From Spirosoma sp. KCTC 42546 (GTDB taxonomy: Bacteria; Bacteroidota; Bacteroidia; Cytophagales; Spirosomataceae): a stretch of 64,000 bases of DNA. Positions within the stretch are counted from its first letter, which is position 1, and each line of letters begins with the position of its first letter. Below the pieces are notes generated by a model. It made no database searches. It saw only the letters and a list, made by a program, of their open reading frames with translations, and was not told where the DNA came from. Shown in pieces: positions 14,285-64,000 of the stretch. The position numbers were made by a program, and so were the translations under genes. Location of the stretch: NCBI RefSeq assembly GCF_006965485.1, contig NZ_CP041360.1, forward strand, positions 806,001 through 870,000, read 5' to 3'.

Positions 14285-14324
14285 CAGGTGATTCGTAAAA
14301 GTTAAAGTGCAATCCCACGTTGCA

Positions 14325-14348
14325 CCCCTCTCTGTAACGGGAGAGGGG
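14325..14348. repeat. CCCCTCTC/GAGAGGGG hairpin, copy 2
   Basis: CCCCTCTC (14325-14332) and GAGAGGGG (14341-14348) form a perfect 8-bp stem with an 8-nt loop. It lies just after the 3' end of the ROK gene and before the FG-GAP gene on the minus strand. It is related to the longer hairpin at 12434-12478 and has no U-tract in the minus direction. Confidence 0.6.
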
Positions 14349-14356
14349 CTAAAAAT

Positions 14357-44207: not shown

Positions 44208-46079
44208 TTAAATAAAGTTAGTTATGTCTAATTCGACAGCTTCAATATCTTTTAAATATGATTTACAAGATTTTAGTTGAGAAGTTAAAATGCCTACGAC
44301 TTTGTTTACTTCCGAATCTATCTCATGCTTTACATTTTGACTTATCCAGTCAAAACTTAAATTTGAATCTTTATTGTCATACACATGGGAAATTAAAGGC
44401 ATTGTATCAACTTTTCGAATACTACTAAACTCTTGAGTTGGAATTACTTTTTCACTCTTTAGTATTGCGAATAAATTCCCTATAAACTCTTCAATAAGCA
44501 TATAATATTTGAAGGGTGGATGTACATAGCCAATAACTTCCCACTCGTCATTATCTATTATCTCTTTACTGTTACTTACAACTAAGCCAGAAGTAAAAAT
44601 ATTTAACACCGCTTTTAGTTGTGCATTTACACCTCTTCTTTTTAATTTAGATATTAAATCTTTGATTATAGGGATTTCTATATATTTTACATAATTATAT
44701 TTGTCTAACTCTTTGCATAAAGACATGAAATTTTGAATATCCGATCCGTATGTATGAGCTGTGCTATTTTTCTTGTACTCTAACCTAACACGTATTTTAG
44801 CATAAATGGCCTCTTTGTTGGAACTTGTACTTTCAATGCAAGATGCTGCAAAATATTCTTGCATTGATCTATGAGCGAACGAAAGTATACCACTATCCTC
44901 GACCCATATTCCTATGGCAGTTTTTAAATCATCAACTACCTTATTCAGATCAAAATTTGGGAAATTTTTATTTTTATCTATGGCGATCTTTTTGGCAATA
45001 CCTAATTTTTGCTTTGCATAACCTCTGTCAAATGAATATTGGCTATCAAAAAAAGTTATTAAGGAGAAAGCCTTAAGAAGTTCTTCAAATTGCTCTTGAT
45101 GTAAAGTTGAAGAAAATTCCCTTTCGAAGCCGATTTTACTAGCTGAATCATGCTCTCTATATAATACCTCAAAAACTCGTCTATAGAATATAGATTTGCT
45201 ATCGGGAACACTTGAATTAGTTGAATAAGTTACAATATATAATGTTAGTAATAAGGGATTAGTTAAGTAAGAGTTTATATAATTATTTTTTGCTATTGCT
45301 AGAGATTGTTTTATTTTATCTGCAAGATTTTGCTTAATCTTTTGCAAATCAATAAATTTTCCAATATCATCCTCAGATAAGTCTTGCATATAATAATTAT
45401 GAAATTTGGGTAGCATTTCTAGATTACTATATGGCCTTGTAGTGATTAAATATCTATTCTTGTCATATTTTTCTACAAAGCTGTTTATTGAGGTGATTAC
45501 TTTATTCTTATGTTTAGCTTGCACTTCGTCATACCCATCAAGTAGAAATACAAAATTTCCAGCATTTAACAGCCTATTTAGAATTTCATTGTTTTGAGCT
45601 AGTTTTAAATTTATAATTTTCTCCTTAATGAAATGTTGTAAATCATTAGAACATTCATTTAAGTCTCTAAGTTGAATTAGTATTGGAATACCAAACTTCT
45701 CTTTTATGCAGTTTAAAAATAAATGCTTTATTAAAGTACTTTTACCGCTACCAGCATCGCCTGTTACTGTTACAAATCGAGTATTCCAAAAGACGCGATT
45801 TACAGATTGGGTATCTACTATAGCTTCATGCGATTTGTTATGTTCTCTTTTTTTGAGTTTTGCAGGAAAATAAATTTCATAGAAAGGCACAGGCTCATGT
45901 CTATGTAGAATAGTCTTTATGAGTCTAAAATCAACTTCATATTTATAAAGATATTCTGATAGAGCATCACTAAACAATTGCTTTGCTTCATCTTTAATGC
46001 CTCCTAGAAAGCTACTGGAAGTTTGGTATACCTCTTTAATTATCGCTGGGGCGGCAGACTTTAAAAGCGTTGCTTCCAT
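44208..46079 (-). CDS. NACHT-domain NTPase, candidate anti-phage protein
   Basis: 623 residues, clearly more AT-rich than genes to its left. N-terminal helical region about 1-90. The NACHT module has Walker A GDAGSGKST (107-115), Walker B with acidic tail VFLLDGYDE (177-185), and the sensor-type RYLITTRPYSNLEML. A winged-helix-like part follows (LTNPLLLTLYIVTYS, IFYRRVFEVLYREHD, LSFAHRSMQEYFAASCIES). The C-terminal ~200 residues are helical and do not show clear LRR or TPR repeats. No effector nuclease domain is recognised. Family knowledge: bacterial NACHT proteins (bNACHT) can protect against phages; this role is inferred. An IS sits 67 bp upstream of the start codon. Confidence 0.88.
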   Translation of the reverse strand: MEATLLKSAAPAIIKEVYQTSSSFLGGIKDEAKQLFSDALSEYLYKYEVDFRLIKTILHRHEPVPFYEIYFPAKLKKREHNKSHEAIVDTQSVNRVFWNTRFVTVTGDAGSGKSTLIKHLFLNCIKEKFGIPILIQLRDLNECSNDLQHFIKEKIINLKLAQNNEILNRLLNAGNFVFLLDGYDEVQAKHKNKVITSINSFVEKYDKNRYLITTRPYSNLEMLPKFHNYYMQDLSEDDIGKFIDLQKIKQNLADKIKQSLAIAKNNYINSYLTNPLLLTLYIVTYSTNSSVPDSKSIFYRRVFEVLYREHDSASKIGFEREFSSTLHQEQFEELLKAFSLITFFDSQYSFDRGYAKQKLGIAKKIAIDKNKNFPNFDLNKVVDDLKTAIGIWVEDSGILSFAHRSMQEYFAASCIESTSSNKEAIYAKIRVRLEYKKNSTAHTYGSDIQNFMSLCKELDKYNYVKYIEIPIIKDLISKLKRRGVNAQLKAVLNIFTSGLVVSNSKEIIDNDEWEVIGYVHPPFKYYMLIEEFIGNLFAILKSEKVIPTQEFSSIRKVDTMPLISHVYDNKDSNLSFDWISQNVKHEIDSEVNKVVGILTSQLKSCKSYLKDIEAVELDITNFI

Positions 46080-47719: not shown

Positions 47720-47830
47720 TAATTATATTTCGAATAGTTCTGGCTTTACACTTTAAAGCCTATATATCAGAATTTTAAGACTCTTTTTTTCTGGTTAGTA
47801 TTGGTTATTTCTGGTTGTTATGGTAGATTT

Positions 47831-47868
47831 GTTTCAACCAACGTTTCAACTAACTCGTTGGTTGAAAC
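47831..47868. promoter_or_regulatory. Operator-like inverted and direct repeats before the integrase
   Basis: GTTTCAACCAACG (47831-47843) and CGTTGGTTGAAAC (47856-47868) are perfect 13-bp inverted repeats. A second direct copy, GTTTCAACTAAC, lies between them from 47843. The right arm ends 4 bp before the integrase ATG. It may be a regulator or recombinase/excisionase binding site, or a translation-blocking hairpin. Confidence 0.6.
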
Positions 47869-47872
47869 AAAA

Positions 47873-49228
47873 ATGGCAGGCACTCGAACAACAGACCATA
47901 AAGAAGGGAAAGCTACTGTCAAAGTAGTTTATTATACACATAAAACACTCGCTGATGGATCTCATCCATTTGTGGTCCGTATTACTAAGAACAGAAAGAA
48001 TCGTTGGATTTCAACCGGACTGAGTTTGCAGCCCAAATATTGGAACGAGCAGAAAAAGGAGATACGTCGTAGTTATCCTGAACCAGATCGATCGAAGCTG
48101 CTAAAAAAGCTAGCAGAGTGGCAGGATAAATATGAGAAGGTTGTTGAAATAGTGGCTGATACGGATGAGCAATACGATGTTAAATCGATAGCTGCGAAAG
48201 CTGTGGAAAGTCGCAAACAAACACGTAAGGTAACCTTGTTAGCTTATATTGATTCGATCGTTGAGGGTATGGTAAAAGCTAACCAAACTGGAAACGGCAT
48301 CGTTTATCGGGATCTACGCAATCAGTTATATAAATTCATTGTAGACGAATATGATGCCTCTGATGTGTCCTTCGATAAGATTACAGTGAAATTCTGTTAT
48401 GAATGGGAAAACACCTTACGCATTACAGGGTCGACAGAAAATACATTAAGTAATCGCTTTAGGACACTGCGTGCTGTATTAAACCGGGCTATAGCCAATG
48501 GCTATGCAAAGGCGGATAATTATCCTTTTGCGCGTAATGTGGCAGAAAAACATAAGTTTAGTGTAGGCAAGTTTGATACGTCAACGCAGAAACGGGCTAT
48601 TAGTCGAGACCATATACGTAAAATTGAAGCTTATCAACCAGTTGGAAGCGCTACTGGTCCATACGCTCAGCTGAAAAATGCTGCTGAGATTGAACGGCTC
48701 CAACGGGCTAAAGATATTTTCCTATTCTCGTTTTACTTAGCTGGGATAAATTTTGTTGACTTAGCGAAGCTCCGCTGGCGAGATATTCAGATTGATGATA
48801 CTGAAAACCAACGCATTAATTACGTTCGACAAAAAACCGGAGGGAAATTTTCTCTGAAGCTTTTAGAACCAGCAATAGCTATAATTGAGTGTTACAGAGC
48901 AGAAACGTATAGTGGAGCAGATAGCTATATTTTCCCTATCCTCAATGATCAAATACATACTACGGTTGTTAAAATCAACAACCGTATTCACAAGGTATTG
49001 GGGCAAACGAATACAGACTTAAAAACTATTGGCAAGACTATTGGGTTGGGAATCCCATTGACGACTTATGTAGCCCGTCATTCATTTGCCATGGCTCTTA
49101 TTCGAGCTGGGGCTGGCAAATCAGTCGTTGGGCAAGCTTTTCAACATGGAGCTGAGTCAACTACGAATGTGTATGTGAATAGTTTTGAAAATAGCGATGT
49201 TGATAGGGCTATGGATTCGTTGCTATAA
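47873..49228 (+). CDS. Tyrosine recombinase (phage-integrase family, SAM-like N-terminal domain)
   Basis: 451 residues from ATG 47873; an in-frame TTG at 47801 would begin ahead of the operator repeats and is less likely. N-terminal arm-binding domain about 15-100 (VVYYTHKTLADGSHPFVVRI, WISTGLSLQPKYWNEQKKEI). SAM-like core-binding domain about 125-235 (RDLRNQLYKFIVDEYDASDV, RFRTLRAVLNRAIANGYAK). Catalytic domain: Arg in AKLRWRDI, core Arg-His in TTYVARHSFAMALIRAGAGK, then QAFQHGAESTTNVYVNSF with the nucleophile Tyr in VYVNSF. This architecture is usual for Bacteroidota integrative elements. It lies 154 bp from the tRNA-Val fragment and should catalyse integration there. Confidence 0.93.
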   Translation: MAGTRTTDHKEGKATVKVVYYTHKTLADGSHPFVVRITKNRKNRWISTGLSLQPKYWNEQKKEIRRSYPEPDRSKLLKKLAEWQDKYEKVVEIVADTDEQYDVKSIAAKAVESRKQTRKVTLLAYIDSIVEGMVKANQTGNGIVYRDLRNQLYKFIVDEYDASDVSFDKITVKFCYEWENTLRITGSTENTLSNRFRTLRAVLNRAIANGYAKADNYPFARNVAEKHKFSVGKFDTSTQKRAISRDHIRKIEAYQPVGSATGPYAQLKNAAEIERLQRAKDIFLFSFYLAGINFVDLAKLRWRDIQIDDTENQRINYVRQKTGGKFSLKLLEPAIAIIECYRAETYSGADSYIFPILNDQIHTTVVKINNRIHKVLGQTNTDLKTIGKTIGLGIPLTTYVARHSFAMALIRAGAGKSVVGQAFQHGAESTTNVYVNSFENSDVDRAMDSLL

Positions 49229-51393: not shown

Positions 51394-51732
51394 GTGAGAC
51401 TATTATCAATCCTCTTTCTAACAGTTGCAATTGCCCGGCAAGTTTGCCATGCTCAAACAGCCGGAACAGATTCATCATCGGTCGCTGAAATCAGCTATTC
51501 GATTAGCACGAAGCTACTCCTAAGTCAGGAGTATTTTGAAAAGCAAGGGAATAAAAGTATAAGCAATAAACTAGAAAAGGTTAGTAATACATTTTCTCAA
51601 ATTAGTGAAGGGTTATCTAATGTGAGGCCTAGCATTGAATATATCGCTGCCTTTAAAGGTTATGATAAGGTGATTGCTTCTCTGCAAACGATCCCTCAAG
51701 CTTCTGCTTTACAATTACTGGATGACATCTAA
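51394..51732 (+). CDS. Exported helical protein, N-terminal part of a gene split by an in-frame stop
   Basis: 112 residues from GTG 51394. Signal peptide MRLLSILFLTVAIARQVCHA, then a helical region (ISYSISTKLLLSQEYFEKQG, SISNKLEKVSNTFSQISEG, KVIASLQTIPQASALQLLDD). The stop TAA at 51730-51732 is followed in the same frame by GAG GAC ATG and a further 115 codons, so with the downstream ORF this looks like one 229-residue periplasmic protein interrupted by a single nonsense codon. First gene of the Srf-like operon; no -7 promoter element was identified. Family unknown. Confidence 0.65.
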   Translation: MRLLSILFLTVAIARQVCHAQTAGTDSSSVAEISYSISTKLLLSQEYFEKQGNKSISNKLEKVSNTFSQISEGLSNVRPSIEYIAAFKGYDKVIASLQTIPQASALQLLDDI

Positions 51733-51738
51733 GAGGAC

Positions 51739-52083
51739 ATGGAAGTGAAGTTACAGCGAGACAATAGTATGAAACTAGACGACAAGTTTACCCGGCCCGT
51801 TAAAGTAAAAATTGTAACACGTAGAATAGTGGATGGTAAGGAAGTGGATGTGCCTGGATATATTATCAAATACAAACTTTGGTTTTTGAAAGACGAGAAA
51901 ACCCCATTGTTCAATTTTACCAACCCCACCCTTTCAGCAGAGAAGTCCATTACACCTGGCAACTACGATATATGGGCAGAATTACCCAGTTCTAGTAAGC
52001 AATACCCACAAAAGCGAACAAGAATGCGTATCCCCGACGTAGACGGTAGTGATGCAATAACTATTGTGCTACTCCTTAACTAA
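51739..52083 (+). CDS. Beta-sandwich-like domain, C-terminal part of the split gene
   Basis: 114 residues from ATG 51739, in the same frame as 51394-51732. It reads VKVKIVTRRIVDGKEVDVPG, YIIKYKLWFLKDEKTPLFNF, ITPGNYDIWAELPSSSKQYP, and ends ITIVLLLN. This looks like an extracytoplasmic carboxypeptidase-regulatory-like beta-sandwich (the SITPGNYDIWA turn is typical). It has no signal peptide of its own, which favours it being the tail of the upstream exported protein. Alone it would stay in the cytoplasm. Confidence 0.6.
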   Translation: MEVKLQRDNSMKLDDKFTRPVKVKIVTRRIVDGKEVDVPGYIIKYKLWFLKDEKTPLFNFTNPTLSAEKSITPGNYDIWAELPSSSKQYPQKRTRMRIPDVDGSDAITIVLLLN

Positions 52084-52095
52084 CTGGATATTAGC

Positions 52096-52720
52096 ATGAA
52101 AGCCTTTTTCGAAAAGCTACAATCATATTGGGTTATACTAACACAGGCAACTATCTGGATTGGTTCAGCATTTAGCAGCTTTTTGCTCCCCCCCCCCCTT
52201 AGACTATATGGGTAGCGATCAAGGTACTTACAATCCGTTTATTCAATTTCTGACTACTCTATTAATTGGATTTGTCTTCTTACCAATCCAAGTTCGGTCA
52301 GCATCCCGTTATTCTTGGTTTTGGTGGAAGATAGCATTGGCGTTCGTCATTGTTGGCATAATTGCCTTTTTAGGATATCAAAGTTTCAAGGTAAATCATT
52401 CTATAGAGTATCCTAAGCGTAGCAATAATTATAAAATCAATGGTAATACATTGACACCTCTGGCGCAGAAAAAAATGGACCAGGGAGAAGCTGAATCCAT
52501 TGAAGTATTACTCGAAGATGCAGCAGGGGATGCCCGTTTACTTTGGCCTATGCAAGAAATAAGGTCTAACACGATTATACTTCTGCTTTTATACGGATTT
52601 TGTCAATTTTCATTTACTATAGGCATTATCACACTCCTACAAGCTATCGACTGCCATCTAAAAAAAGAGCCCACTGAAGATAGTAGCCCAACAGAAACCC
52701 TTCCAACACTACCTCCATGA
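52096..52720 (+). CDS. Four-helix membrane protein, frame interrupted at an 11-base poly-C tract
   Basis: ATG 52096 opens a frame reading MKAFFEKLQSYWVILTQATI, WIGSAFSSFLLPPP, which hits TAG shortly after the poly-C at 52188-52198. With one C fewer the frame continues LDYMGSDQGTYNPFIQFLTT, LLIGFVFLPIQVRS, to the stop at 52718-52720, giving about 207 residues. Predicted helices: VILTQATIWIGSAFSSFLL, FLTTLLIGFVFLPIQV, KIALAFVIVGIIAFLGY, TIILLLLYGFCQFSFTIGII, with an extracytoplasmic loop between the last two. The frame may be phase-variable by slippage, pseudogenised, or a sequencing error. Its stop overlaps the next start (ATGA). Confidence 0.7.
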
Positions 52721-54441
52721 GACAGTTTTTATTTGTACACCAACTTCGTACATCCCGCATTATCGTACTTTTTTATCTGCTTAGTAATGGCTATTCAGCG
52801 TTTGGCCAGCAGACTAGTAATTCTGGCGCATTAGGTAATGTTCGGGAACTAGGCACTTCTGATGCGCTCGAACAGATGATCGCTGAGGAAGCAGCTCGAC
52901 TAGACCGTACAACTGGCTTTTCCACCCCTGTACGCATAACAGATGGACCTATCGAGGCAAATCCACAGTATGGCATTTTAATCAATAAAAGGCGTTTACA
53001 AAGCTTTCTGAGTCAATCGGAGATGCACTCTATGCGCGATTTGGTTCAGGCTGTTTTAGCTCATGAAAAAGCTCACTGGATACAATACCGCGATAATCGT
53101 TACGGGTTTCAAATACTTAACTGGGGTTTTGAACAAAAGAGAATAATTGAATGCCAGGCAGATATTCTCGCTGGCAAATATTTTACAGAAACATTTGGTA
53201 CCGCTAAAGCCAAACGACTTGAAAACCCTTTGCCACTTACAGCAACAGATAGAACCCCGGCGAACGTTAAAGACATCCTTCAATTAGCCTTTGATCTAGG
53301 AAGTTACGAATCTACATCAAATAGAGGCAGCGATGTACACCCTAGTCGACAAGCACGGCGAATTGCTTTCCGGTTTGGTATGTCAGTTGGTGGGTTAGAT
53401 TTTGCAAAACGTGAAATAGCACGACTTTCTCGATCCTCTGAACCTGGCAGTTCTCAACTCATCCAAGACTATAGGAACATGATAGACGTAGTTTCTTATA
53501 AAACATCATTCAATCCTCAACAAACAGATGTGTTAGACTGGAGTTTCTGGCAGGCAAGCCGAATTACTCATTATAACACAGCCGCTAGTAAGGATATAAG
53601 TTTTGTAATTAATAACGAACAGTGGAGTCGAAATCCCAATAATCCAACTGTTACTTACTCGGTCACCGTTCAAAATAATGGAGAACGTTCAATCAGAAGC
53701 GACTTCGCTATTCAATGTGATTGGTTTCCTAAAGAAGATATACGTAATACAAAGGAATCCTTACTTATTAGCATCAAATCATATCGTTTTACGCTTAAAC
53801 CAGGAGAGAAACGAACACTTGAGGCTAGTTTACCCACTTCTCAAATAGGAATACCCAATGCCGAAGACTATGTAATGATATTAACGGTACCTCCTATGCC
53901 AACATCGCTGATGCGGTTTGAATACGTAGATGAGCAACCTAATGATCAAAGCCCCACCAGCACTCATGCTTTTGGTGTAAAGTCGACAAGGCCAATACGA
54001 GATGATTTACTGAGAATTCTGCCAGCATACGCCAAAGCTGTTCGTAATAACTACAAGGATCTAATTGCTGGTCCCAGCCTTCGCTATGGTTATGAAGTAG
54101 ATACCGATAAAGTGATTCAGTATGGTTTCACACCCTATGAAAACATTGTAGAAACGAAAATTATTAGTAGTGCTTCAGACCGTTATCCACCTATGCTGGC
54201 GGTCACCTTATTTCAAACGCTAGATTCTGATGAACAAGATGATGTTTTCTCCGACATAGCTGAGAAGTTGACTACAATTGATGGTATCAATCGATATCAG
54301 CTTAATGATGGGACAGATCCCAATAAAGTTCTTGTCTTTACCTACAATTTAACGCCTAACCATTTTTTAGCACTCGCAAAAATAAAAGCTCCTAACTCAA
54401 GGTACGAAGTGCAATTAATATTTAAAAAAATGAGTAGTTAA
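52717..54441 (+). CDS. Exported HExxH zinc metalloprotease-like protein
   Basis: 574 residues. It starts within ATGA of the upstream gene, so it is translationally coupled. Signal peptide about 1-31 (IIVLFYLLSNGYSAFGQ). A zincin core: HEKAH (116-120) in VQAVLAHEKAHWIQYRD and the downstream acidic motif ECQAD (Glu145, Asp149) in IIECQADILAGKYFTE, as in many gluzincins. HPSRQARRIAFRFGMSVGG follows. The C-terminal half (about 280-574) is beta-rich: an Ig-like stretch (VTYSVTVQNNGERSIRSDFA) and a final domain ending VQLIFKKM. It should act in the periplasm or outside. Exact family unknown. In the operon it precedes the DUF3887-like gene and srfB. Confidence 0.78.
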   Translation: MRQFLFVHQLRTSRIIVLFYLLSNGYSAFGQQTSNSGALGNVRELGTSDALEQMIAEEAARLDRTTGFSTPVRITDGPIEANPQYGILINKRRLQSFLSQSEMHSMRDLVQAVLAHEKAHWIQYRDNRYGFQILNWGFEQKRIIECQADILAGKYFTETFGTAKAKRLENPLPLTATDRTPANVKDILQLAFDLGSYESTSNRGSDVHPSRQARRIAFRFGMSVGGLDFAKREIARLSRSSEPGSSQLIQDYRNMIDVVSYKTSFNPQQTDVLDWSFWQASRITHYNTAASKDISFVINNEQWSRNPNNPTVTYSVTVQNNGERSIRSDFAIQCDWFPKEDIRNTKESLLISIKSYRFTLKPGEKRTLEASLPTSQIGIPNAEDYVMILTVPPMPTSLMRFEYVDEQPNDQSPTSTHAFGVKSTRPIRDDLLRILPAYAKAVRNNYKDLIAGPSLRYGYEVDTDKVIQYGFTPYENIVETKIISSASDRYPPMLAVTLFQTLDSDEQDDVFSDIAEKLTTIDGINRYQLNDGTDPNKVLVFTYNLTPNHFLALAKIKAPNSRYEVQLIFKKMSS

Positions 54442-54488
54442 AAGCTCAATCGTATACTTTGCCTGGCTTTACCTTAACCATTTCAACT

Positions 54489-54908
54489 ATGAAAATTAAC
54501 AGTTTACATATCATTTCTTTTGCATTGTTATTGCTGCCAACGCATCGTTTAGAAAGTTCATCCAATCAAATTGACAACGTCATTATTAGGCGAAGTATAG
54601 ACGAAAGCTCCCGTATGGTAATAGCTCAAAAAATCATTGATAATCTAGCAAAAGAAAAGTTTGAAGCTGTAAGAGCAGATTTCGCAGGAGTGCTAAAACA
54701 ACAACTTTCACCCCAGAACATTAAGGATGTTTGGTTAAGCACCACTGCACAGCTTGGTCGATTTGAGAAAGTAGTTGCTACAAGAACAGCTGTCATACAA
54801 GGTTATAATCAAGTCATTAGCCGTTGTAAGTTTGAAAGTGATGTTATAAACATCGAAGTTACCTTTAATGAAGATGATAAAGTTTTCGGGCTATTTCTGA
54901 AACCATAA
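54489..54908 (+). CDS. Exported DUF3887-like protein
   Basis: 139 residues from ATG 54489; the upstream in-frame start at 54459 is not needed and would precede the signal peptide (MKINSLHIISFALLLLPTHR). The mature part has IAQKIIDNLAKEKFEAVRAD, FAGVLKQQLSPQNIKDVWLS, TTAQLGRFEKVVATRTA, and DVINIEVTFNEDDKVFGLFL. This matches my memory of the DUF3887 pattern (a helix pair followed by LG.F..V and a beta-sheet ending in F.L). An NTF2-like fold of unknown function. Located between the metalloprotease and srfB. Confidence 0.68.
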   Translation: MKINSLHIISFALLLLPTHRLESSSNQIDNVIIRRSIDESSRMVIAQKIIDNLAKEKFEAVRADFAGVLKQQLSPQNIKDVWLSTTAQLGRFEKVVATRTAVIQGYNQVISRCKFESDVINIEVTFNEDDKVFGLFLKP

Positions 54909-54930
54909 GTAGTTAAATACATTTCAGAAA

Positions 54931-54985
54931 CTGTCTACAATTCTCAATGAAATTAATTTCGGCTTTTGTTGGGAATTGTAGACAG
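54931..54985 (+). terminator. 13-bp perfect hairpin before srfB
   Basis: CTGTCTACAATTC (54931-54943) and GAATTGTAGACAG (54973-54985) are perfectly complementary, with a 29-nt centre, followed by CTTTTGAT. It can act as a terminator or attenuator between the exported-protein genes and srfBC. The T-run is short, so read-through is likely. Confidence 0.6.
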
Positions 54986-55030
54986 CTTTTGATATAATTG
55001 AAACAAATTGACCAAGCCATACCTTTTACC

Positions 55031-58000
55031 ATGACCTTTTCATTAATTGCCAATTCAGGTATCCAATTTCATAGATTTGAAATAACTATAGATCCTAATG
55101 CAGAAGTTATAGGCACAATGGGTTTCCATGAATACGAGGATTTGCTAAATGCTCGTATTTCTATTGAAAATGCATTCTTTTTACCCGATCAGGACTTTTG
55201 GGTTCCAAAGCAAGTACTTCAACATCATGGTTACCTTGATGGAGACGGTAACTTACATACTGATATTGTAAATTTAAACGAAATAAAAGGCTTCCGTCTT
55301 AAAGAAGATAAAGATTATTTCACTGTAGGTGACATTCAGACTTGCCTCGAGTACTTTTTATCGAAAGACGACGAAGTTATTTGGCTACCTGTACCTTTTT
55401 TTAAGCGTACTAATAATGCTGCCCAAACGTTTGGTCCAATTGCTTGGGCGAGGATGATGATTAAGGAAATTCCTGCCGAGAATGCAGGAGGAAGAAAAAA
55501 TATTAACCAAAGGTCCAAAATCGCAAAGTATCATATAGTGTTGGCATTTGATACTAAATTAGCCGAGGGTAATGCCTCTTACTATGCTCCAACGATAGCT
55601 GATACAAAGGAGCAAGGCAATCAGTTTTTACTCTGTAATAATGAAGATTTATTGCTCAACTTCTGTAACACTAAGTACCACTGCGGTTGGGTAAATCGCT
55701 ATATAAAAGATCTTGTCCAAACTAGCGAACCCCAACAATTTCCTCGGCAACAATATATTGGATATTATATATACTTTGTCAAATATTTAGCATCTCTTTT
55801 TACCAAGACAGATGATGCGCAGATTCAGCCTTCCTTTCCTGAAGTTGTTCTTTACTCCGATCAAAACATTCCAGTTGAAGTCGATTTAGTATTGGATATT
55901 GGTAATTCTAATACCTGTGGTATCCTATTTGAGCACCCTAGCCCTCACCGGCCTTTTAATTTGACTAGTGCCAAAAAACTGAAAATTAATGATCTGACTC
56001 AGCCTGAAAAAGAATATACCGATCCTTTCTCAATGCGGCTTGTTTTTGCAGAAGCCCGATTTGGAAAAATATATTCTGACTATAACAATTTTAGATGGCC
56101 TAGTCTGCTTCGGCTGGGCTCAGAGGCAAGTCGACTGATTAGTAAGTATACAGTTAATAAAGACCGTGGCTTCGAAACTGCAACTCATCATTCCAGCCCT
56201 AAACGCTATCTCTGGGATAACAAAAGGACGGATGTGCCTTGGGAGTTTATTAACTTTTCCGGGCAAAATGTCAGCGACGCCGTATATTATGAAGGAATAT
56301 CTGAACAGTTTAAAGAGAATGGTGAATTCGCCCACGATGGTGCATTCGCTAGTTTACCTTTCTACTCCCGGAAATCGCTAATGATTTTCGTATTTATCGA
56401 AGTCCTTTTGCATGCTATTGCCCAAGCTAATTCCCACGAATTCAGAACAACTCATGGGAGCTCTGAGATACCACGTAAAATAAAACGATTGACTATTACT
56501 TGTCCCACATCAATTATTCAGAAAGAACAGTTCATACTTCGCGAGTGTGCAGAAATTGCTGTACGAGTATTGGGCCGTTTTTTCTCGGATACATTTCTGG
56601 GTACTTACGATGAAGATGATGCAGCAAGACCTGACTTGGAGATCGTACCAAGCCCTAAAGACCTTTTAAAAAAACGTGATCAGTCTGCCTTCCGTAAAGA
56701 TTGGATTTATGACGAGGCAACTTGTGGACAATTGGTATTCATTTACGGAGAAGTTAGTAGAAGGTACTTGAACAATGCCGACTTGTTTTTTCGGCTTTAT
56801 GGCAAATACCGCGATGACGTCAGCAATACAGATACTAAAGCGTTAACAATTGGTACCATTGATATAGGAGGGGGCACTACTGACCTAATGATTTGTGCTT
56901 ACCAACACGAATCTGATCAAAACTTAGCAGTTATCAAGCCTCACCCACTCTATTGGGAAAGTTTCAATTTTGCGGGTGACGATCTACTAAAAGAGATTGT
57001 TCAACAAGTTCTATTAGAAGGGAACCCCAAAGGCGAAGCCGAAATCGGCTGTGTTGGGGTTTTATCTTATGCAGCAAAAAAAGCAGGTGTGACACAGGTA
57101 TCGGAGAAGATGTTACGATTCTTCGGTCCTGATAGTAATAAGCAGGGATATACGGTTCGGACCAATCGTAAGAACTTCGTCGTACAAATTGCTGTGCCAA
57201 TAGCCTTGCACTATCTCCAGCATGCAATTGATGACAAACCAGACGAGGAAATAAAATTTATTGATTTCTTCCCAGATGTAACTCCGAATCATGAGCTTGT
57301 ACAGTTCTTTAATCAAACATTTTTCCCGCTCAGATTGGAGGATGTAACGTTTAAGCTTTCCAAAAAACGAGTGTTTGACATTGTTGAATTGACTTTTGAC
57401 CCACTATTACGGCAACTTTCCGGAATGATATCTGCTTATGGCTGTGATTTTCTGTTGCTTGCTGGAAAACCGACGACAATACCAAAAATCCGGGAAATGC
57501 TCGTTCGCTATTACCCTGTGTCACCAGATCGGATTATTACGCTAAACAACCAATACCGAGTAGGGCGATGGTATCCATTTGCCGATGATTTGGGCTATAT
57601 CGAAGATCCCAAAACAGTAGTAGCTGTAGGTGCACTGATTGCGTTAATGGGCGGAAAATTAGATGGACTTGATGGCTTCAGGATAAACACGCAATTATTA
57701 CGTCAGCGACTTGAATCAACTGCTGATTATATTGGAACCTTGAATTTTCACACACAATTAATTGACGCAATTTTGATTAGCCCTGGTGAAAATAACAACG
57801 AAATTATTGTACACTCGCTTCCGCTAACCCTTGGCTACAAACAACTACCGAACAAACATTATAGGGGGAAGCCAATTTATAAGTTAGAGTGGAATAATGA
57901 AGAAATCATGAAACGAGTTATTGAGCAAAATCCTATATTATCTGATAATGAGCAAGATGTGGAGAACGCGATGCAGCATTATAAAGTAACCCTTAAAAAT

Positions 58001-58189
58001 AGTATGCCATTTCGGGTAAAGTTGCAGCGCAATTGGTCTGAGAGCAAAGAAACACTAACCATTTCACGCGTTTTGGATGCAAATAAGAATGAGCGCTCAA
58101 GGCAAATGTTATCCCTTTCTATTATGACACTAGCCGATGAATACAGTTATTGGCTCGATACTGGCGAATTTATACTCAATCTACGCTAA
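55031..58189 (+). CDS. srfB: SrfB-like Hsp70/actin-fold ATPase
   Basis: 1052 residues from ATG 55031 (in-frame TTG 54998 adds 11 residues). The start MTFSLIANSGIQFHRFEI matches the LIANSGIQF opening I remember for SrfB. Actin/Hsp70 ATPase marks: phosphate-1 VDLVLDIGNSNTCGILFE (about residue 290), phosphate-2 IGTIDIGGGTTDLMICAY (about 610), and an adenosine motif DFLLLAGKPTTIPKIREML (about 806). The length suits the SrfB family of about 1000 residues. There is no signal peptide, so it is cytoplasmic. In Salmonella, srfB lies with srfA and srfC; here srfC follows 54 bp later. It probably cycles conformation with ATP and controls its partners. Confidence 0.85.
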   Translation: MTFSLIANSGIQFHRFEITIDPNAEVIGTMGFHEYEDLLNARISIENAFFLPDQDFWVPKQVLQHHGYLDGDGNLHTDIVNLNEIKGFRLKEDKDYFTVGDIQTCLEYFLSKDDEVIWLPVPFFKRTNNAAQTFGPIAWARMMIKEIPAENAGGRKNINQRSKIAKYHIVLAFDTKLAEGNASYYAPTIADTKEQGNQFLLCNNEDLLLNFCNTKYHCGWVNRYIKDLVQTSEPQQFPRQQYIGYYIYFVKYLASLFTKTDDAQIQPSFPEVVLYSDQNIPVEVDLVLDIGNSNTCGILFEHPSPHRPFNLTSAKKLKINDLTQPEKEYTDPFSMRLVFAEARFGKIYSDYNNFRWPSLLRLGSEASRLISKYTVNKDRGFETATHHSSPKRYLWDNKRTDVPWEFINFSGQNVSDAVYYEGISEQFKENGEFAHDGAFASLPFYSRKSLMIFVFIEVLLHAIAQANSHEFRTTHGSSEIPRKIKRLTITCPTSIIQKEQFILRECAEIAVRVLGRFFSDTFLGTYDEDDAARPDLEIVPSPKDLLKKRDQSAFRKDWIYDEATCGQLVFIYGEVSRRYLNNADLFFRLYGKYRDDVSNTDTKALTIGTIDIGGGTTDLMICAYQHESDQNLAVIKPHPLYWESFNFAGDDLLKEIVQQVLLEGNPKGEAEIGCVGVLSYAAKKAGVTQVSEKMLRFFGPDSNKQGYTVRTNRKNFVVQIAVPIALHYLQHAIDDKPDEEIKFIDFFPDVTPNHELVQFFNQTFFPLRLEDVTFKLSKKRVFDIVELTFDPLLRQLSGMISAYGCDFLLLAGKPTTIPKIREMLVRYYPVSPDRIITLNNQYRVGRWYPFADDLGYIEDPKTVVAVGALIALMGGKLDGLDGFRINTQLLRQRLESTADYIGTLNFHTQLIDAILISPGENNNEIIVHSLPLTLGYKQLPNKHYRGKPIYKLEWNNEEIMKRVIEQNPILSDNEQDVENAMQHYKVTLKNSMPFRVKLQRNWSESKETLTISRVLDANKNERSRQMLSLSIMTLADEYSYWLDTGEFILNLR

Positions 58190-58243
58190 TAGTAAGTCTT
58201 ACTTAACAACTGACTTGGCAGCTATTTTTAAATTTACCACACT

Positions 58244-61096
58244 ATGACAAATTTACCTGAGAACAAACTGAAAGAGTTAGCTGAATCTGTTGAGAAATTA
58301 GTGGGTGTTATTAATGACGGAATTAAGTGTTCTACAACATTTCATCACCTAGATACTTCATTCAAATTAAAGAAGAATCGTCGTTTACTAAATAAGGTTC
58401 GATTGGCTATTGTCCAAAAACCTACGATAGCACTGTTCGGGGCTAGTCAGGCCGGAAAATCATATCTAGTAAAAAATATACTTTCAGATAAAAATAATCA
58501 ATTATTTATTGCTGATCCTCGTTCTGAAGAAAATACTATAAACTTTATTAAAGAAGCTAACCCAGAAGGAGGTGGAAGTGAGGCAACGAGTTTAGTAACT
58601 CGATTTACTTTTAACGAGCATTCAGGCAAAAGCTTACCTCCTGTCAAAATAAGGCTTCTCCAAGCTAGAGACATCATTACAATAATTTTAGATAGCTATT
58701 TTTCTGATTTCAAAAAACGTAAAAATACTCCTGACATCAATAAAATACAAATTGAATTGTTTTTAAGTAATTTGTCAGAATTGTACGATGTACATATACA
58801 ACATTATCTTACTGAAGATGATGTATATGATATAGAAGATTATATAACAAACGCTTTTGGCTCCGCGTATAAAAATAAGCTTGCTTCTTTAAAAGATGCT
58901 GACTATTGGCGAATCATAGGTGAAAATATACATAAGATTTCTCCTAACAATTGGACTAAATTATTCTCAATCATTTGGGGGCAAACAAAGGAATTAGATC
59001 GACTTTTTAATTTACTGATTGGCGAATTACAAAAGCTAAAATTTTCAACAGAATTATACGCAGAGTTTGATTCTGTTCTTCGAGATAAAGGAGCAATTTT
59101 AAATGTAGTTAGATTACAGCAATTATTTTGGGGTTCTGGACAATCCCTAAGGCTTGTTGATGAGTCTGGGAATAATTTTAGTGCCGATGCCAGTGTATTA
59201 TGTGCTTTGGGAGCAGAGGTCATTTTCAATATTTCTGAAAATTCTATTGAAAAAAATCCATTTATCAAAAATGTTGATATTTTAGACTTTCCTGGTGCTC
59301 GGTCCAGGTTAGAACAAGATGAAAATGATCCGCTTACAGAAGATCACCTTACAAACATGTTGTTACGAGGTAAAGTAGCTTATTTGTTTAACTCTTACTC
59401 ATTACGATATGAATTGAACAATCTGTTCATCTGCACAAATAACCGACAGTCTAATGTGAATGGGCTTTCTGAGCTGATTGACAGTTGGATTAATTATAAT
59501 GTTGGTAATACTCCACAGGAAAGAACACAAACATTAAAAAATGTCAAGACTCCTCCATTATTTATTGTTTTCACATTCTGGAATACACAATTAGAGTATG
59601 ATCAAGATAATGATGAAAAGGATTTGGAGCATAAGTGGGAGCTAAGATTTAATAAACTTTTTCGAGGTGAAATTAAAGGAACGTTTAATTGGCCAACCGA
59701 ATGGACACAGAATGGACCTTTCAATAATTACTTTTTACTGCGTGACCTTAAATATTCAAAAGATCTTTATTCAGGTTTCGAGGCTTTAGGATACGAGAAA
59801 GAATTGCATTCCTTTAGAAAAGGCCATTACGATAATTTGAAAACTTCATTTGAACGATCAATCCTGGTACGTGAGTTTTTTCCTAAGCCAGAAACAGTTT
59901 GGGAACAAACCTCTACATTGAATAACGATGGGAGTAAGTATATTATACAACATATCGATGATATTGCAAATAACCAAATACGTACAAATCGGTTCATCCA
60001 ATTAATTGAAGGCTCTCAAGCAGAAATCAGAAGCTTACTTAGTGAACGGTATCATGATGAAGCTGCTGATAATAAAATTGTAGAGGCTGCTGCCAAGGCA
60101 TCAGAGATTCACGCTGTTATGAACAGCATATTTGGTGAAGATGCATATCGTTTTGGACAGTTCATTGAGAAATTCACCGTTCAGGAAAAGGAAATCTTTG
60201 AACTCTATCATGAAGAGTTACGCAAACTTGCTATTATAAAAGCTCCCGATCTAAAACGGTATCAATTTTACCGAGAATCTAGCCCTCGCTTAAATAGCAA
60301 TAAGACTTACGAAGAGAACTTAGTTATTCTAATGCAAGATTATTTTCGGTCTTCGCCAGAGGCAACAGAGACATACTTCACAGAGGAACTCAAGATAGAT
60401 CTTAAAGAGCTTTTTTATGGGAATTTGTTCAATATAAAAAATAAGTCAGAGGTGCTGGCTGAACAGGCACGTCAGTACTGGATTGAAAAGCGGTTGAACG
60501 TTGAGCATTTCGGCGATATTATTCAGCAGGGACTTAACAAAACATTGTTAGAGCGGCTTTTGGAAAATATGAAAGTATCTTTCGACAAATGCGGCATTAC
60601 TTTACTGATTGCGAAAGAGATACGTATGTTTGTCGATACTGTGAATCGTGTCGACACTGCGGAAGACATGATTGCTGACGCTACAGTTGCTATTATCAAT
60701 GAATTTGTAACCAGCTTCGGTTGGACTTTCTATTCTCCTCAGGAAAAACAGAAAATTAAGGAGGCTAATGATATCGCTAAACTTAATCTCTCACTACCTT
60801 CTGATGAAGAACTGTTTCTATCATTAGATAGATTAGATGAAGAAATCGAAGGGCGTATGTCTCTAGAACGCTTGCTAGAATATATGGTGCATCTGAACGA
60901 ACATCTGAATAAAGTTCCCTTAGATATGGAGGTGGTAAAAACCGTTCCAATGATTAAGAACTATCGATTATGGCGGGAGAAAATGAAAGCCTGTTTCATT
61001 GCTAATTGCGATATTCCTACTTATAATATTGAAGAGAACAGACAATTAGGCATTTTACTTGACCGAATTAAGCTATTTAATTTTTCTCTGTCCTGA
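58244..61096 (+). CDS. srfC: SrfC-like P-loop NTPase (dynamin/GTPase-like)
   Basis: 950 residues from ATG 58244. The Walker A motif GASQAGKS (66-73) lies in IALFGASQAGKSYLVKNIL. A second conserved block EGGGSEATSLVTRFT is as I recall for SrfC. A switch-type motif DILDFPGARSR (about 345-355, DxxG-like) precedes TNMLLRGKVAYLFNSYS. The ~600 C-terminal residues are long, charged and helical (EIHAVMNSIFGEDAYRFGQF, AEDMIADATVAIINEFV), like dynamin-type stalks. There is no signal or membrane segment. It sits directly behind srfB and 17 bp before the SrfA-like/subtilase gene. Nucleotide preference is not certain (GTP suggested by fold). Confidence 0.84.
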   Translation: MTNLPENKLKELAESVEKLVGVINDGIKCSTTFHHLDTSFKLKKNRRLLNKVRLAIVQKPTIALFGASQAGKSYLVKNILSDKNNQLFIADPRSEENTINFIKEANPEGGGSEATSLVTRFTFNEHSGKSLPPVKIRLLQARDIITIILDSYFSDFKKRKNTPDINKIQIELFLSNLSELYDVHIQHYLTEDDVYDIEDYITNAFGSAYKNKLASLKDADYWRIIGENIHKISPNNWTKLFSIIWGQTKELDRLFNLLIGELQKLKFSTELYAEFDSVLRDKGAILNVVRLQQLFWGSGQSLRLVDESGNNFSADASVLCALGAEVIFNISENSIEKNPFIKNVDILDFPGARSRLEQDENDPLTEDHLTNMLLRGKVAYLFNSYSLRYELNNLFICTNNRQSNVNGLSELIDSWINYNVGNTPQERTQTLKNVKTPPLFIVFTFWNTQLEYDQDNDEKDLEHKWELRFNKLFRGEIKGTFNWPTEWTQNGPFNNYFLLRDLKYSKDLYSGFEALGYEKELHSFRKGHYDNLKTSFERSILVREFFPKPETVWEQTSTLNNDGSKYIIQHIDDIANNQIRTNRFIQLIEGSQAEIRSLLSERYHDEAADNKIVEAAAKASEIHAVMNSIFGEDAYRFGQFIEKFTVQEKEIFELYHEELRKLAIIKAPDLKRYQFYRESSPRLNSNKTYEENLVILMQDYFRSSPEATETYFTEELKIDLKELFYGNLFNIKNKSEVLAEQARQYWIEKRLNVEHFGDIIQQGLNKTLLERLLENMKVSFDKCGITLLIAKEIRMFVDTVNRVDTAEDMIADATVAIINEFVTSFGWTFYSPQEKQKIKEANDIAKLNLSLPSDEELFLSLDRLDEEIEGRMSLERLLEYMVHLNEHLNKVPLDMEVVKTVPMIKNYRLWREKMKACFIANCDIPTYNIEENRQLGILLDRIKLFNFSLS

Positions 61097-61113
61097 CTAC
61101 AGCGATAGATCGT

Positions 61114-63759
61114 ATGTCCACACCTTACACGTATGTTATTGATGCAAGAAAGCTTAAGCCAGTTATCTGGCTAAGTTCTCCCGTATACCGTAGCTACGAT
61201 AAGCTAAAAAGCCATTTACGTCTACAGTTAGGTGATGAATCCGCTCTACTTTTTGCCAAACCGTTTATTCAAGAAAAATCCACAGGTGAGTTAGAGAGAA
61301 CCAATTGGTATTGTGAAGGCTTTTCACACAGCCCAACTCCTCTGAATCTACTTCCACAAGGACTTCAGGAAACATACAAGAATTTACTTCAACAAAAACT
61401 CACGGTCTTACTGGAATATTCGCAGCGAATGCTGGAGTCGGACGACGCAGAATCAGTACGCTGGGGTCAGCTCATTAATAAGTCACTTGATATTCCTGGG
61501 GAGGACCAGATTTTATGTGGTGATGGTAATGTTGTGTTAGTTGCATGGGGATTTACGGCTAATACAGACAACACGATTACCTACAGCTTACGTAAAAATT
61601 TTCAACCTATTTTCCCTGCTCCCTCAATAAGTACTGATTTATTAGTAAAACCAACTTCTCAAATTAAGTATGAAGAACAGAATACTGAAACACCTTTAGG
61701 AACTATTCAGGAAAACCCTTCAAGTGCCCAGTTGTCCAATAGGGATAGCGATCTTACTTCTACAAATCCGGTCTCTACGGCCAATGCCAATAAGCCAACA
61801 AGAGATGCTGATATAGCTAATTCGGTTGATAAAGAGACGCTAGGCCATTACCAAGTTATTGCAGGTTCGTCTGGTTTAGAGTCTTCCTCAAAAAAGGCCT
61901 CAACAAACGATCCCCATAAACCGTCGTTCTGGGCGAAATGGAAGCGCTTATGGTGGGCATTACCTCTGTTACTAATTCTAATATTTCTGGCAGCGCGCCA
62001 ATGCGGACCTATTTCATATTTACCGAAACAACCAGGGGTAATAATACCAATTGATACAACTAAAATCGTACTTGATCCTGCTAAAGTACGATATATCGTT
62101 ACTGACCGACTTAATATTGTTTTAACGGGTTCTAATAAAGATGTAGAAGCGTTTGCTAAGGCTTTTAAGAATGCTTACCCTAACGACGATTATAGAGTCA
62201 TTTATTATGATCCAAAGACTTATCGCCTACAACTCGAAATACCGCCAACAGACCGGGAGCAGGTTAAGAAAAACTTATCCTCACAACTATCCGGTTTTAA
62301 AATGTGGATTTTTTATGAAGGAGTTATTCGAGGTCAGCAAATAGCCAATGACCCAGGTTTTACTAATCAACTCCGCAGTTGGTATCATACAGCTGTACAG
62401 GTTCCGGCCGCCTGGCAATATACCCAAGGCGATAACCGACTTGTTGTGGCAGTGGTTGATCAGGGCTTTGATTTGACTCATCCCGAAATTTCAAACCATA
62501 TCGTACATCCGTATAATGTTCTTAATCATTCGCCTAATCTATCTCGCAGTCCCATGCTGGGTATGCACGGAACACACGTTGCGGGGATTGCTATAGGCAC
62601 AGTAAACAACGGTATAGGCTTAGCTGGTATTGCCCCGAACTGCCGATTGATGCCGGTTCAAGTAGGCGATCCGATCGGGCAGATGGGAACAACATCGGTG
62701 ATCGATGGCTTTCTCTATGCCATCGATAATGGGGCTAGCGTTGTTAATATGTCGCTAGGGATGCGGGCGGCTGCTGGCATTAAACTATTCTCCCCCGAAG
62801 AACAGCAGGAATTAGCTAATATTTTATTTAAAGATGAAGAGCTGTTCTGGAATAGCTTATTTGACCGTGCTGAGGAGAAGAATGTTTCAGTGGTTTTAGC
62901 TGCTGGCAATGATGATGTCATTATCGGACTTGACCCCATGCAGCGTTCAGAAAAGACATTTATTATATCAGCGACTGATCAAGCAAATAATAAAGCAGAT
63001 TTCAGTAACTACGGGAATGGCTCTACACTAAGTGCACCCGGAGTAAGGATTTTCAGTAGTGTACCCGACAGACGCTTTGCCTTTTTCGATGGTACAAGTA
63101 TGGCAGCTCCGATTGTAGCAGGCGGAGTTGCTCTACTGAAAAGTGTAAACCCTACGCTGACTTTTCGCCAACTGAAATCAATTCTACAGCAAACAGGGCT
63201 ACCCATTTATTCGTTGGGTGCCTATGTAGGCAACCTTATTCAATTAGGGAAAGCCCTGGAAATAGCTGCTCGTGGTCATCAGAGTGGCGGAGTGGCTAAC
63301 TGCTCCGATGTTCAGCGACAGATTGACAGTTTGCTGTTAATGGTTGAGCAACTCAAACAATCATGTGATGAAAATAACGCAGGCGACACTTTAAAACTTC
63401 CGCCCATTAACACAGGGTTAGATTTTGCAGTTGGACGATGGAAAAGTACGTCAGATATTGTGAATAATAAGGGAGAATTTGTCGAACTTTACTTTGATTT
63501 TCAGAAGACTGGCACCGGGACAATTACCCTGCGTGAAGCAAACGGTACCCAATGCTCTGCACCTTTAGCGTTCGGCCTAACAACCAACGAGTTCCATATA
63601 ACTCAACGTTCGGCGGCAATTTGCTCGCCCCCTCCACAACAGTATGCTTCCTATAGCTTCGGATGCCAATCCGATGCAAATGGTCATGCTTTGTGCACTG
63701 GACAGAATCAGCAAAATGTTGGCAATAATCTACGATTCAACCTTGTAAAAATTCAATAA
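61114..63759 (+). CDS. SrfA-like N-terminal region fused to a transmembrane helix and a subtilisin (S8) protease
   Basis: 881 residues. Cytoplasmic part about 1-165: SSPVYRSYDKLKSHLRLQLG, FIQEKSTGELERTNWYCEG, LCGDGNVVLVAWGF, similar in layout to what I remember of SrfA (PVY..AL.LR, then ...RIDWYAP). A linker rich in Ser/Thr/Asn leads to one membrane helix about 279-297 (WWALPLLLILIFLAARQCG). Outside: a small domain (IVLTGSNKDVEAFAKAFKNA), then the S8 protease with Asp449 in VVAVVDQGFDLTHPE, His485 in GMHGTHVAGIAIG and Ser662 in FDGTSMAAPIVAGG. It ends with a coiled coil (RQIDSLLLMVEQLKQSC) and a Cys-containing beta domain (about 768-881). The protease faces outward while the SrfA part meets SrfB/SrfC inside. 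Confidence 0.85.
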   Translation: MSTPYTYVIDARKLKPVIWLSSPVYRSYDKLKSHLRLQLGDESALLFAKPFIQEKSTGELERTNWYCEGFSHSPTPLNLLPQGLQETYKNLLQQKLTVLLEYSQRMLESDDAESVRWGQLINKSLDIPGEDQILCGDGNVVLVAWGFTANTDNTITYSLRKNFQPIFPAPSISTDLLVKPTSQIKYEEQNTETPLGTIQENPSSAQLSNRDSDLTSTNPVSTANANKPTRDADIANSVDKETLGHYQVIAGSSGLESSSKKASTNDPHKPSFWAKWKRLWWALPLLLILIFLAARQCGPISYLPKQPGVIIPIDTTKIVLDPAKVRYIVTDRLNIVLTGSNKDVEAFAKAFKNAYPNDDYRVIYYDPKTYRLQLEIPPTDREQVKKNLSSQLSGFKMWIFYEGVIRGQQIANDPGFTNQLRSWYHTAVQVPAAWQYTQGDNRLVVAVVDQGFDLTHPEISNHIVHPYNVLNHSPNLSRSPMLGMHGTHVAGIAIGTVNNGIGLAGIAPNCRLMPVQVGDPIGQMGTTSVIDGFLYAIDNGASVVNMSLGMRAAAGIKLFSPEEQQELANILFKDEELFWNSLFDRAEEKNVSVVLAAGNDDVIIGLDPMQRSEKTFIISATDQANNKADFSNYGNGSTLSAPGVRIFSSVPDRRFAFFDGTSMAAPIVAGGVALLKSVNPTLTFRQLKSILQQTGLPIYSLGAYVGNLIQLGKALEIAARGHQSGGVANCSDVQRQIDSLLLMVEQLKQSCDENNAGDTLKLPPINTGLDFAVGRWKSTSDIVNNKGEFVELYFDFQKTGTGTITLREANGTQCSAPLAFGLTTNEFHITQRSAAICSPPPQQYASYSFGCQSDANGHALCTGQNQQNVGNNLRFNLVKIQ

Positions 63760-63772
63760 CCAGACCATAACT

Positions 63773-64000
63773 ATGCCAAATCTTCTACCTTCAGAGTCTA
63801 TACTGGGTAATATCTTGCATGGAGTAGGGCTCATATTCTGTCTTCTCCTTCTCCTTTTTGGCCTACTTTACACCTTTAACGGTGAGATAATTATTAGCGC
63901 TTTTCTAACCATTCTGGCTGGTGCCATTCTAATAGCAATCACTCGAGTGCTTGTACGCTTAAAAAGCCGAAAAGATGCATATAAGCCGTTAGCACCTGAA
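63773..64000 (+). CDS. Membrane protein, N-terminal part (cut by window edge)
   Basis: ATG 63773, 13 bp after the protease stop, opens a frame that continues through the right edge (76 codons). MPNLLPSESILGNILHGVGL is followed by two hydrophobic helices (IFCLLLLLFGLLYTF and IIISAFLTILAGAILIAITRVL), then a basic stretch LVRLKSRKDAY. Tight spacing puts it in the same operon. Family unknown. Confidence 0.7.
   Translation, partial: MPNLLPSESILGNILHGVGLIFCLLLLLFGLLYTFNGEIIISAFLTILAGAILIAITRVLVRLKSRKDAYKPLAPE

Follow-up and report, generated by a model that had tools for sequence, protein, structure and literature searches.

A conserved SrfABC gene row with a tethered subtilase and a DO-GTPase-like partner in Bacteroidota: a possible trans-envelope protease system

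Introduction

What might a SrfABC locus do in Spirosoma sp. KCTC 42546, a member of the Bacteroidota? SrfABC, described as a virulence factor from about 2000 onward, is without an agreed function. Herein, we analyzed a stretch of 64,000 nucleotides from this genome (contig NZ_CP041360.1, positions 806,001 to 870,000 of the forward strand), hereafter the window, whose coordinates are used throughout unless stated otherwise. An earlier note, made from the sequence alone, had described a SrfABC-type module with two envelope proteases at 51394..64000. Our analysis suggests that the locus may be a trans-envelope protease system controlled by nucleoside triphosphates (NTPs), likely used in conflict or stress, against intruders or attack on the envelope, and we put the probability of this reading at about 0.45. 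The link between SrfABC, a subtilase and a DO-GTPase was unexpected, and the function is one that we infer. A gene row combining a tethered protease with a GTPase whose family has been linked by prediction to bacterial conflict and to membrane stress would provide SrfABC with a testable mechanism in environmental bacteria.

Results

The identity of SrfB was confirmed with the hidden Markov model (HMM) PF07520 (E 1.6e-183; 612.8 bits against a cut-off of 27.1; residues 9-1058), and that of SrfC with PF10139 (E 1.6e-120; 404.3 bits against a gathering score of 28.1). The motifs were located at residues 300 (DIGNSNTCG) and 622 (DIGGGTTD) of SrfB and at residues 66 (GASQAGKS) and 348 (DFPG) of SrfC. 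The listed open reading frame (ORF) of srfB opens at TTG 54998; the database protein P0001 (1052 amino acids, aa) fits an ATG near 55031, which is probably the true start. The key residues of both phosphate motifs of SrfB were invariant in all 15 aligned rows, alphaproteobacterial and gammaproteobacterial ones included, as were Walker A (GxSQxGKS) and DxPG of SrfC in 16 of 16 rows. The later T-x-x-D motif of SrfC was T-x-x-N in all twelve Bacteroidota rows (alignment read by eye), so guanine specificity is doubtful there. A hydropathy scan, made without a signal-peptide program, found no hydrophobic segment in SrfB or SrfC of the window, and from their sequences both look like cytosolic nucleoside triphosphatases (NTPases).

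The third protein had been described as a membrane fusion of a SrfA-like part and a subtilase (S8). For the SrfA part, the family model NF040486 matched residues 23-238 (E 1.5e-26), which supports the assignment, with a score of 93.9 bits that lies below the curated 150-bit cut-off. The subtilase part was verified by PF00082 (E 3.9e-45, 154.8 bits), with its triad at D449, H485, and S662. The triad and the oxyanion Asn were invariant in 14 of 14 aligned rows, and the solved structural relatives are thermitase-like and subtilisin proteases. SrfA and S8 lie within one protein at nine loci. The six fusions with a further C-terminal domain were examined for two SrfA halves, and a profile made from four proteobacterial SrfA-like proteins matched both ends in each of them, with S8 in between. 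In the window fusion the matches were at 22-307 (i-E 5.7e-17) and 770-869 (i-E 2.6e-7); in the other five the C-end i-E-values ran from 3e-7 to 1.3e-3, the weakest being that of L005. The remaining three fusions (G026, G035, and L013) stop shortly after the S8 domain and were left out.

The helix near residue 280 of the window fusion follows a Lys/Arg-rich stretch, which would place the N-domain on the cytosolic side of the inner membrane and the protease on its outer side. The segment between this transmembrane (TM) helix and the protease is conserved across the alignment and could be a candidate pro-domain, which no family match backs. Flavobacterial loci have three separate adjoining genes, for the SrfA N-domain, for a one-TM protein, and for an S8 protein anchored by a TM segment. 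Because SrfA and S8 are fused at some loci and split neighbors at others, they probably act jointly. The SrfA N-domain was also recognized by NF040486 in two proteins of the congener G026 (E 7.4e-13 and 3e-4).

The genome of the window encodes a second SrfA-domain protein (L017:12116-15445) of 1109 aa with a TM helix, carboxypeptidase-regulatory-like and similar beta-domains, and a match to the SrfA profile (E 7.7e-12); NF040486 gave no match for it. By eye, its C-terminal beta-domain resembles that of the flavobacterial one-TM proteins. L030, one of the alphaproteobacterial members of the SrfA profile, also has the SrfA N-domain and carries a vWA domain (by eye).

To compare gene neighborhoods, 18 srfB loci were gathered: that of the window, two from congeners among 58 other relatives, one from 394 other genomes of the phylum, 13 from named genomes, and one from a Runella plasmid. 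By title, twelve of the named genomes are Bacteroidota and one (L009) is a Caenarcaniphilales metagenome-assembled genome (MAG). Counts refer to the 15 loci that were long enough; L007, L009, and L016 were left out because their contigs end before the test region. The recurring order is srfB, srfC, SrfA/S8, a 4-TM protein gene, a GTPase gene, and a GAP1-like gene. The subtilase was present at 14 of the 15 loci, and its association with srfBC, which the earlier note had proposed, is thus conserved. The 4-TM and GTPase genes were each present at 13, the GAP1-like gene at 11 by HMM, and a one-TM protein gene at 10. Short sequence stretches depress the counts for the GAP1-like and one-TM genes: the GAP1-like gene is cut off at the stretch end in L004 and L006, and the L013 stretch ends within the GTPase gene. 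In the Runella locus (L025), the GAP1-like gene was recognized by position and alignment only, not by HMM. The order srfB, srfC, SrfA/S8 persisted, with short gaps, at SrfB identities as low as ~34%.

Two further gene arrangements were observed. In L009, a one-TM protein gene (921-1694) precedes srfB, which shows that the order of genes is open to rearrangement. G133, in which SrfB had no match, has a set of a 4-TM-like TM-protein gene, a GTPase gene and a GAP1-like gene (L046:11679-14826, minus strand), which may be a small GTPase module in its own right; the GTPase was found by model and the other two genes were identified by eye.

The conserved row continues past 64000, and the genes at 51394-54908, taken earlier as part of the module, were not found near srfB elsewhere: in a scan of 16 further srfB loci, 11 of which reach 8 kb or more upstream, none of these genes, that for DUF3887 included, gave a match. 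The module boundary therefore had to be moved. The notion of two envelope proteases failed for the HExxH gene, which was rejected as a module member (0 of these 16 loci and 0 of 58 other relatives); no conserved association with srfB was found for it.

As for the GTPase gene of the row, all 13 GTPase rows of alignment A1 matched PF19975 (DO-GTPase1) at a lenient E<=0.1 (best 6.9e-9), and the Flavobacterium orthologue reached 31.1 bits, above the cut-off of 27. In profile comparison, the GTPase gave 97.9% with twelve canonical DO-GTPase1 proteins (score 92, 170 columns), 97.4% with DO-GTPase2 (score 86), 93.1% with ten PF01926-type GTPases of its own genome (score 53, 130 columns), and 64% with five ORFs taken by eye as SRP54-type GTPases (score 41). 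Since DO-GTPase2 itself reached 97.0% with the PF01926-type GTPases, the margin rests on scores more than on probabilities. By profile score, the operon GTPase is closest to the DO-GTPases. A Gly-Glu after the Walker B strand was invariant in its alignment; a conserved glutamate is described for the DO-GTPase family (Kaur et al. 2020, PMC7159879). The same report describes a GAP1 gene as typically downstream of the DO-GTPase gene and predicts the family to be part of NTP-driven conflict systems.

A reading of SrfC as another DO-GTPase was not supported: the profile comparison gave 7.6% with the operon GTPases, 0.9% with DO-GTPase1, and 8.8% with DO-GTPase2. Its comparison with PF01926-type GTPases gave 81.9%, but across 28 columns only.

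The GAP1-like gene follows the GTPase gene. Neither of the GAP1 models PF20012 and PF20013 was among the Pfam matches of nine GAP1-like members, and a first GAP1 profile test with three reference sequences was null. When alignment A2 was used to search for homologues, it retrieved only the protein of the window genome itself, and a single Flavobacterium sequence, used instead, gave 87. A scan of ten downstream proteins (six from the genome of the window and four from L010), which do not cover every downstream gene, gave no GASH or FNIII component. At 7.38 Mb (G000:C1:7383361-7385269, L043), the genome of the window has a DO-GTPase/GAP1-N1 locus apart from this row, with a gene that is GASH-like by position only.

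The earlier placement of the locus on a putative integrative element held: the region is mobile-looking, with a tyrosine integrase flanked on both sides by ISL3 transposase pieces, a relaxase ~23 kb past the window end (genome 892842-893225), and a shift in guanine-cytosine content (module 0.39 and its downstream part 0.38, vs 0.49 in window 1-40000). Farther along are type I restriction pieces and a metacaspase-like gene. The left neighbor, an M13 peptidase gene, was found in 26 of the 35 genomes that were searched, that of the window among them. Besides it, a comparison of 20 kb of four congeners with 180 kb of the own genome gave only an 86-base match, and no empty insertion site was found. 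srfB was patchy in the genus (3 of 36 genomes, own included). The SrfB of the window shares 66% identity with the Runella plasmid copy, which lies next to BREX genes, and 34% with that of G026, which points to horizontal movement. Carriage by phages was rejected: srfB was absent from phage records, and none was confirmed in viral contigs. Directly left of the integrase, a NACHT-type STAND NTPase gene (44208-46079, minus strand; PF05729 E 4.5e-14) adjoins an ISL3 transposase gene; its product had no PADLOC match at 1e-10.

Defense genes were searched in the flanks of 14 of the 15 loci (133 ORFs, 174 kb) with PADLOC models, 25 of 127 families being among the matches listed; 93 ORFs from 11 arbitrary regions (121 kb; genomes G000, G035, and G214) served as controls, the two sets being unmatched. 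Ten flank-set proteins were checked singly, one of which (the methyltransferase of L004) comes from inside the row. In the Runella copy, brxC, pglZ, and brxL are annotated before srfB, and the BrxC, PglX, PglZ, and BrxL models match flank ORFs. Type I restriction genes lie beside L013 and L015, and ThsB and AbiEii also at L015. None of these defense families turned up in the control regions, where 12 other PADLOC models matched (PDC-S15, PDC-S03, mad3, RT-Protease_XI, and pVip among them). When eight window proteins were compared with known anti-phage systems (PADLOC-DB 2023), only a generic subtilase model matched (E 1.1e-20), the rest being weaker than 0.003.

Just after the srf locus of G026, on the opposite strand, there are two genes for caspase-domain proteins (PF00656; L019:9209-10477 and 13645-15180, minus strand) and one for an M48-like HExxH protein (by eye). 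On alphaproteobacterial plasmids, a trypsin-like protease gene lies near srfBC in L026 and L027, whose genes were taken from the annotation (GC-rich DNA), and vWA, ABC-transporter, and SUMF1 genes stand beside srfBC in L027 and L029.

The coordinates are given in Table 1. All eight ORFs listed earlier were present at their given place and strand, and same-strand genes extend ~14 kb past 64000, to ~77.8 kb, no gap between them exceeding 119 bases. Among the locus-specific upstream genes, the exported protein called split does consist of two ORFs in one frame with a TAA stop in between, and the DUF3887 assignment was borne out by PF13026 (E 9.4e-18). The supposed four-helix protein of 186 aa had three membrane segments, not four, in a simple hydropathy scan. 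The HEKAH motif is present at residue 116 of the 574-aa HExxH protein, a pattern that recurred in 11 of 2000 shuffles of the protein. This protein had no Pfam family above cut-off, no significant PDB match (best E 1), and no relative in 72,556 plasmid records. A Bacteroidota-type promoter pattern had a single match in the window, at chance level and away from srfB.

Table 1. Features of the srf locus and its surroundings (window coordinates; positions above 64,000 lie beyond the window end)
Feature	Coordinates	Strand	Family or evidence
srfB (Hsp70/actin-type ATPase-like), first gene of the conserved row	55031..58189	+	PF07520
srfC (P-loop protein with DxPG switch motif)	58244..61096	+	PF10139
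srfA/S8: SrfA N-domain, TM helix near 280, linker, S8 at 442-694, SrfA C-domain	61114..63759	+	NF040486, PF00082
4-TM protein gene, start	63773..64000, continuing to 64750	+	ORFs, orthologue table
DO-GTPase-like gene, beyond window end	64798-66138	+	ORFs, orthologue table
GAP1-like gene, beyond window end	66153-68531	+	ORFs, orthologue table
One-TM protein gene, beyond window end	68536-69360	+	ORFs, orthologue table
Second SrfA-domain protein, beyond window end	72116-75445	+	ORFs, SrfA profile
DUF3887 exported protein, locus-specific, outside the conserved module	54459..54908	+	PF13026
Exported HExxH protein (HEKAH ... ECQAD), locus-specific	52717..54441	+	Motif; no Pfam family above cut-off
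Two exported ORFs, 112 and 114 aa (one frame, TAA between), and a 186-aa membrane protein, locus-specific	51394..52720	+	
Tyrosine integrase of the presumed integrative element	47801..49228	+	PF13102, PF17293, PF00589

Discussion

How could these parts work together? In the mechanism that we propose, SrfB and SrfC would assemble in the cytosol as a complex bound to the SrfA N-domain, by analogy with Xenorhabdus, in which SrfA, SrfB, and SrfC are reported to co-immunoprecipitate and to run as one complex on native gels (PMC6950479). The subtilase would be held on the periplasmic side, tethered via SrfA, with the linker before it possibly acting as a pro-domain. The DO-GTPase and the partner encoded by the adjoining gene would be a switch that sets the threshold, and a nucleotide-driven change would be relayed through SrfA, releasing the subtilase as the output. 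The system might serve in the reaction to envelope attack or intruders, in conflict or stress. Judged from sequence and gene context, a conflict or defense role is plausible and gains weight from the DO-GTPase link. The patchy distribution, the mobile setting, and some defense neighbors also speak for it.

Several observations weigh against this proposal. L014 lacks the subtilase, the block of 4-TM, GTPase, and GAP1-like genes is missing from the congeners G026 and G035, and in L004, G026, and G035 srfB and srfC are separated by an extra gene, which in L004 encodes a type II DNA methyltransferase (L004:13197-14501). SrfB had no match among PDB sequences. The GTPase of the window genome reached 13.5 bits against the PF19975 gathering score of 27, and 6 of the 13 GTPase rows also matched PF01926 (best 8.9e-7). 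The comparison of the GAP1-like protein with GAP1-N1 by hhalign gave a probability of 2.8% and a P of 0.016, the best of ten control comparisons having a P of 0.062, which is suggestive only of homology. The defense neighbors, BREX or type I restriction beside three other loci, are too few for a statistical claim. Silencing of srfB is reported to be accompanied by phage resistance, not sensitivity (PMC11797060), and a swarming phenotype of srf is reported in Salmonella (PMC4219756).

One alternative is that SrfABC is a machine of surface or envelope physiology, which aids motility, surface behavior, or the export of envelope proteins, with the subtilase maturing surface proteins. The host of the silencing work, a knock-down screen, was reportedly Serratia. 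In that screen, srfB was among 16 genes with more than 50% swimming and more than 50% jumbo-phage resistance (PMC11797060). However, core physiology would be expected to be more conserved, and the patchy distribution in the genus, the mobile setting, and the DO-GTPase partner fit an accessory conflict system better, so we regard this alternative as unlikely.

Another possibility is a weapon, with SrfABC and the protease acting on other cells. Xenorhabdus SrfABC is reported to be cytotoxic to insect and HeLa cells (PMC6950479), and srfBC adjoins control genes of the type VI secretion system (T6SS) in host-associated Deltaproteobacteria (PMC3608642). However, SrfB and SrfC of the window have the appearance of proteins that stay in the cytosol, the SrfA helix tethers the subtilase, and the loci come mostly from environmental bacteria and MAGs by title, which makes a weapon quite improbable. 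That the subtilase and GTPase genes are mere passengers, beside srfBC by chance on shared mobile elements, would suit the mobile or plasmid DNA that carries the window locus and the Runella copy, but is very improbable given the conserved order at low SrfB identity, the short gaps, and the fused and split SrfA/S8 forms.

The proposed trans-envelope protease system might also be seen more broadly. SrfA is suggested as a modular anchor, the outer part of which was swapped among lineages. We tentatively propose, as a rather doubtful extension, that SrfABC could be the core of an unrecognized class of trans-envelope immune or conflict machines, in which an NTPase pair (Hsp70-like and P-loop) would sit on a SrfA membrane chassis, the outer modules (subtilase, vWA, Ig-like repeats, and beta-domains) would be exchangeable, and a DO-GTPase/GAP1-like switch would be added in Bacteroidota. 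If this were true, the class would include the enterobacterial 'virulence factors' as a reduced form.

Which known systems does the locus resemble? IetAS, an anti-phage system with two genes, one for an ATPase and one for a subtilisin-like protease, likewise pairs an NTPase with a subtilase in a defense setting. The window protein matched the PADLOC IetS model with an E of only 0.026; an IetA-like gene was not searched for.

The literature matches listed contained no paper tying SrfB or SrfC to conflict, defense, phage, or subtilase, and none was found tying DO-GTPase to SrfABC, supplements not being covered. The term 'srf' does not occur in the main text of Kaur et al. (PMC7159879; supplements not covered) or in a 2024 paper that mentions DO-GTPase (PMC11237479), as far as these sources were covered. 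The 'GTPase-centric' DO-GTPase/GAP1 systems (PMC7159879) are alike in having a DO-GTPase1 relative, a following partner gene, and membrane proteins, and subsets of them are reported with HSP70 and TM components. They differ from the present locus, where no GASH or FNIII was matched, the partner is only GAP1-like, and the core is SrfBC.

In host-associated Deltaproteobacteria, srfBC is reported beside tagQ and ppkA, in most also beside tagRST (PMC3608642), so there too srfBC adjoins a trans-envelope signaling module. The alphaproteobacterial loci collected here have ABC-transporter and SUMF1 genes beside srfBC. These genes may correspond to TagST and TagR, respectively. In the Bacteroidota loci, none was recognized by eye, with no dedicated search, and the subtilase and GTPase are found there instead.

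The enterobacterial srfABC shares the same three families (NF040486, PF07520, and PF10139), and its SrfA, SrfB, and SrfC are reported as one complex. The Rahnella locus is a plain SrfA-B-C. In the row described here, by contrast, the order is B-C-A, SrfA carries an inserted subtilase, and 4-TM, DO-GTPase-like, and GAP1-like genes are added.

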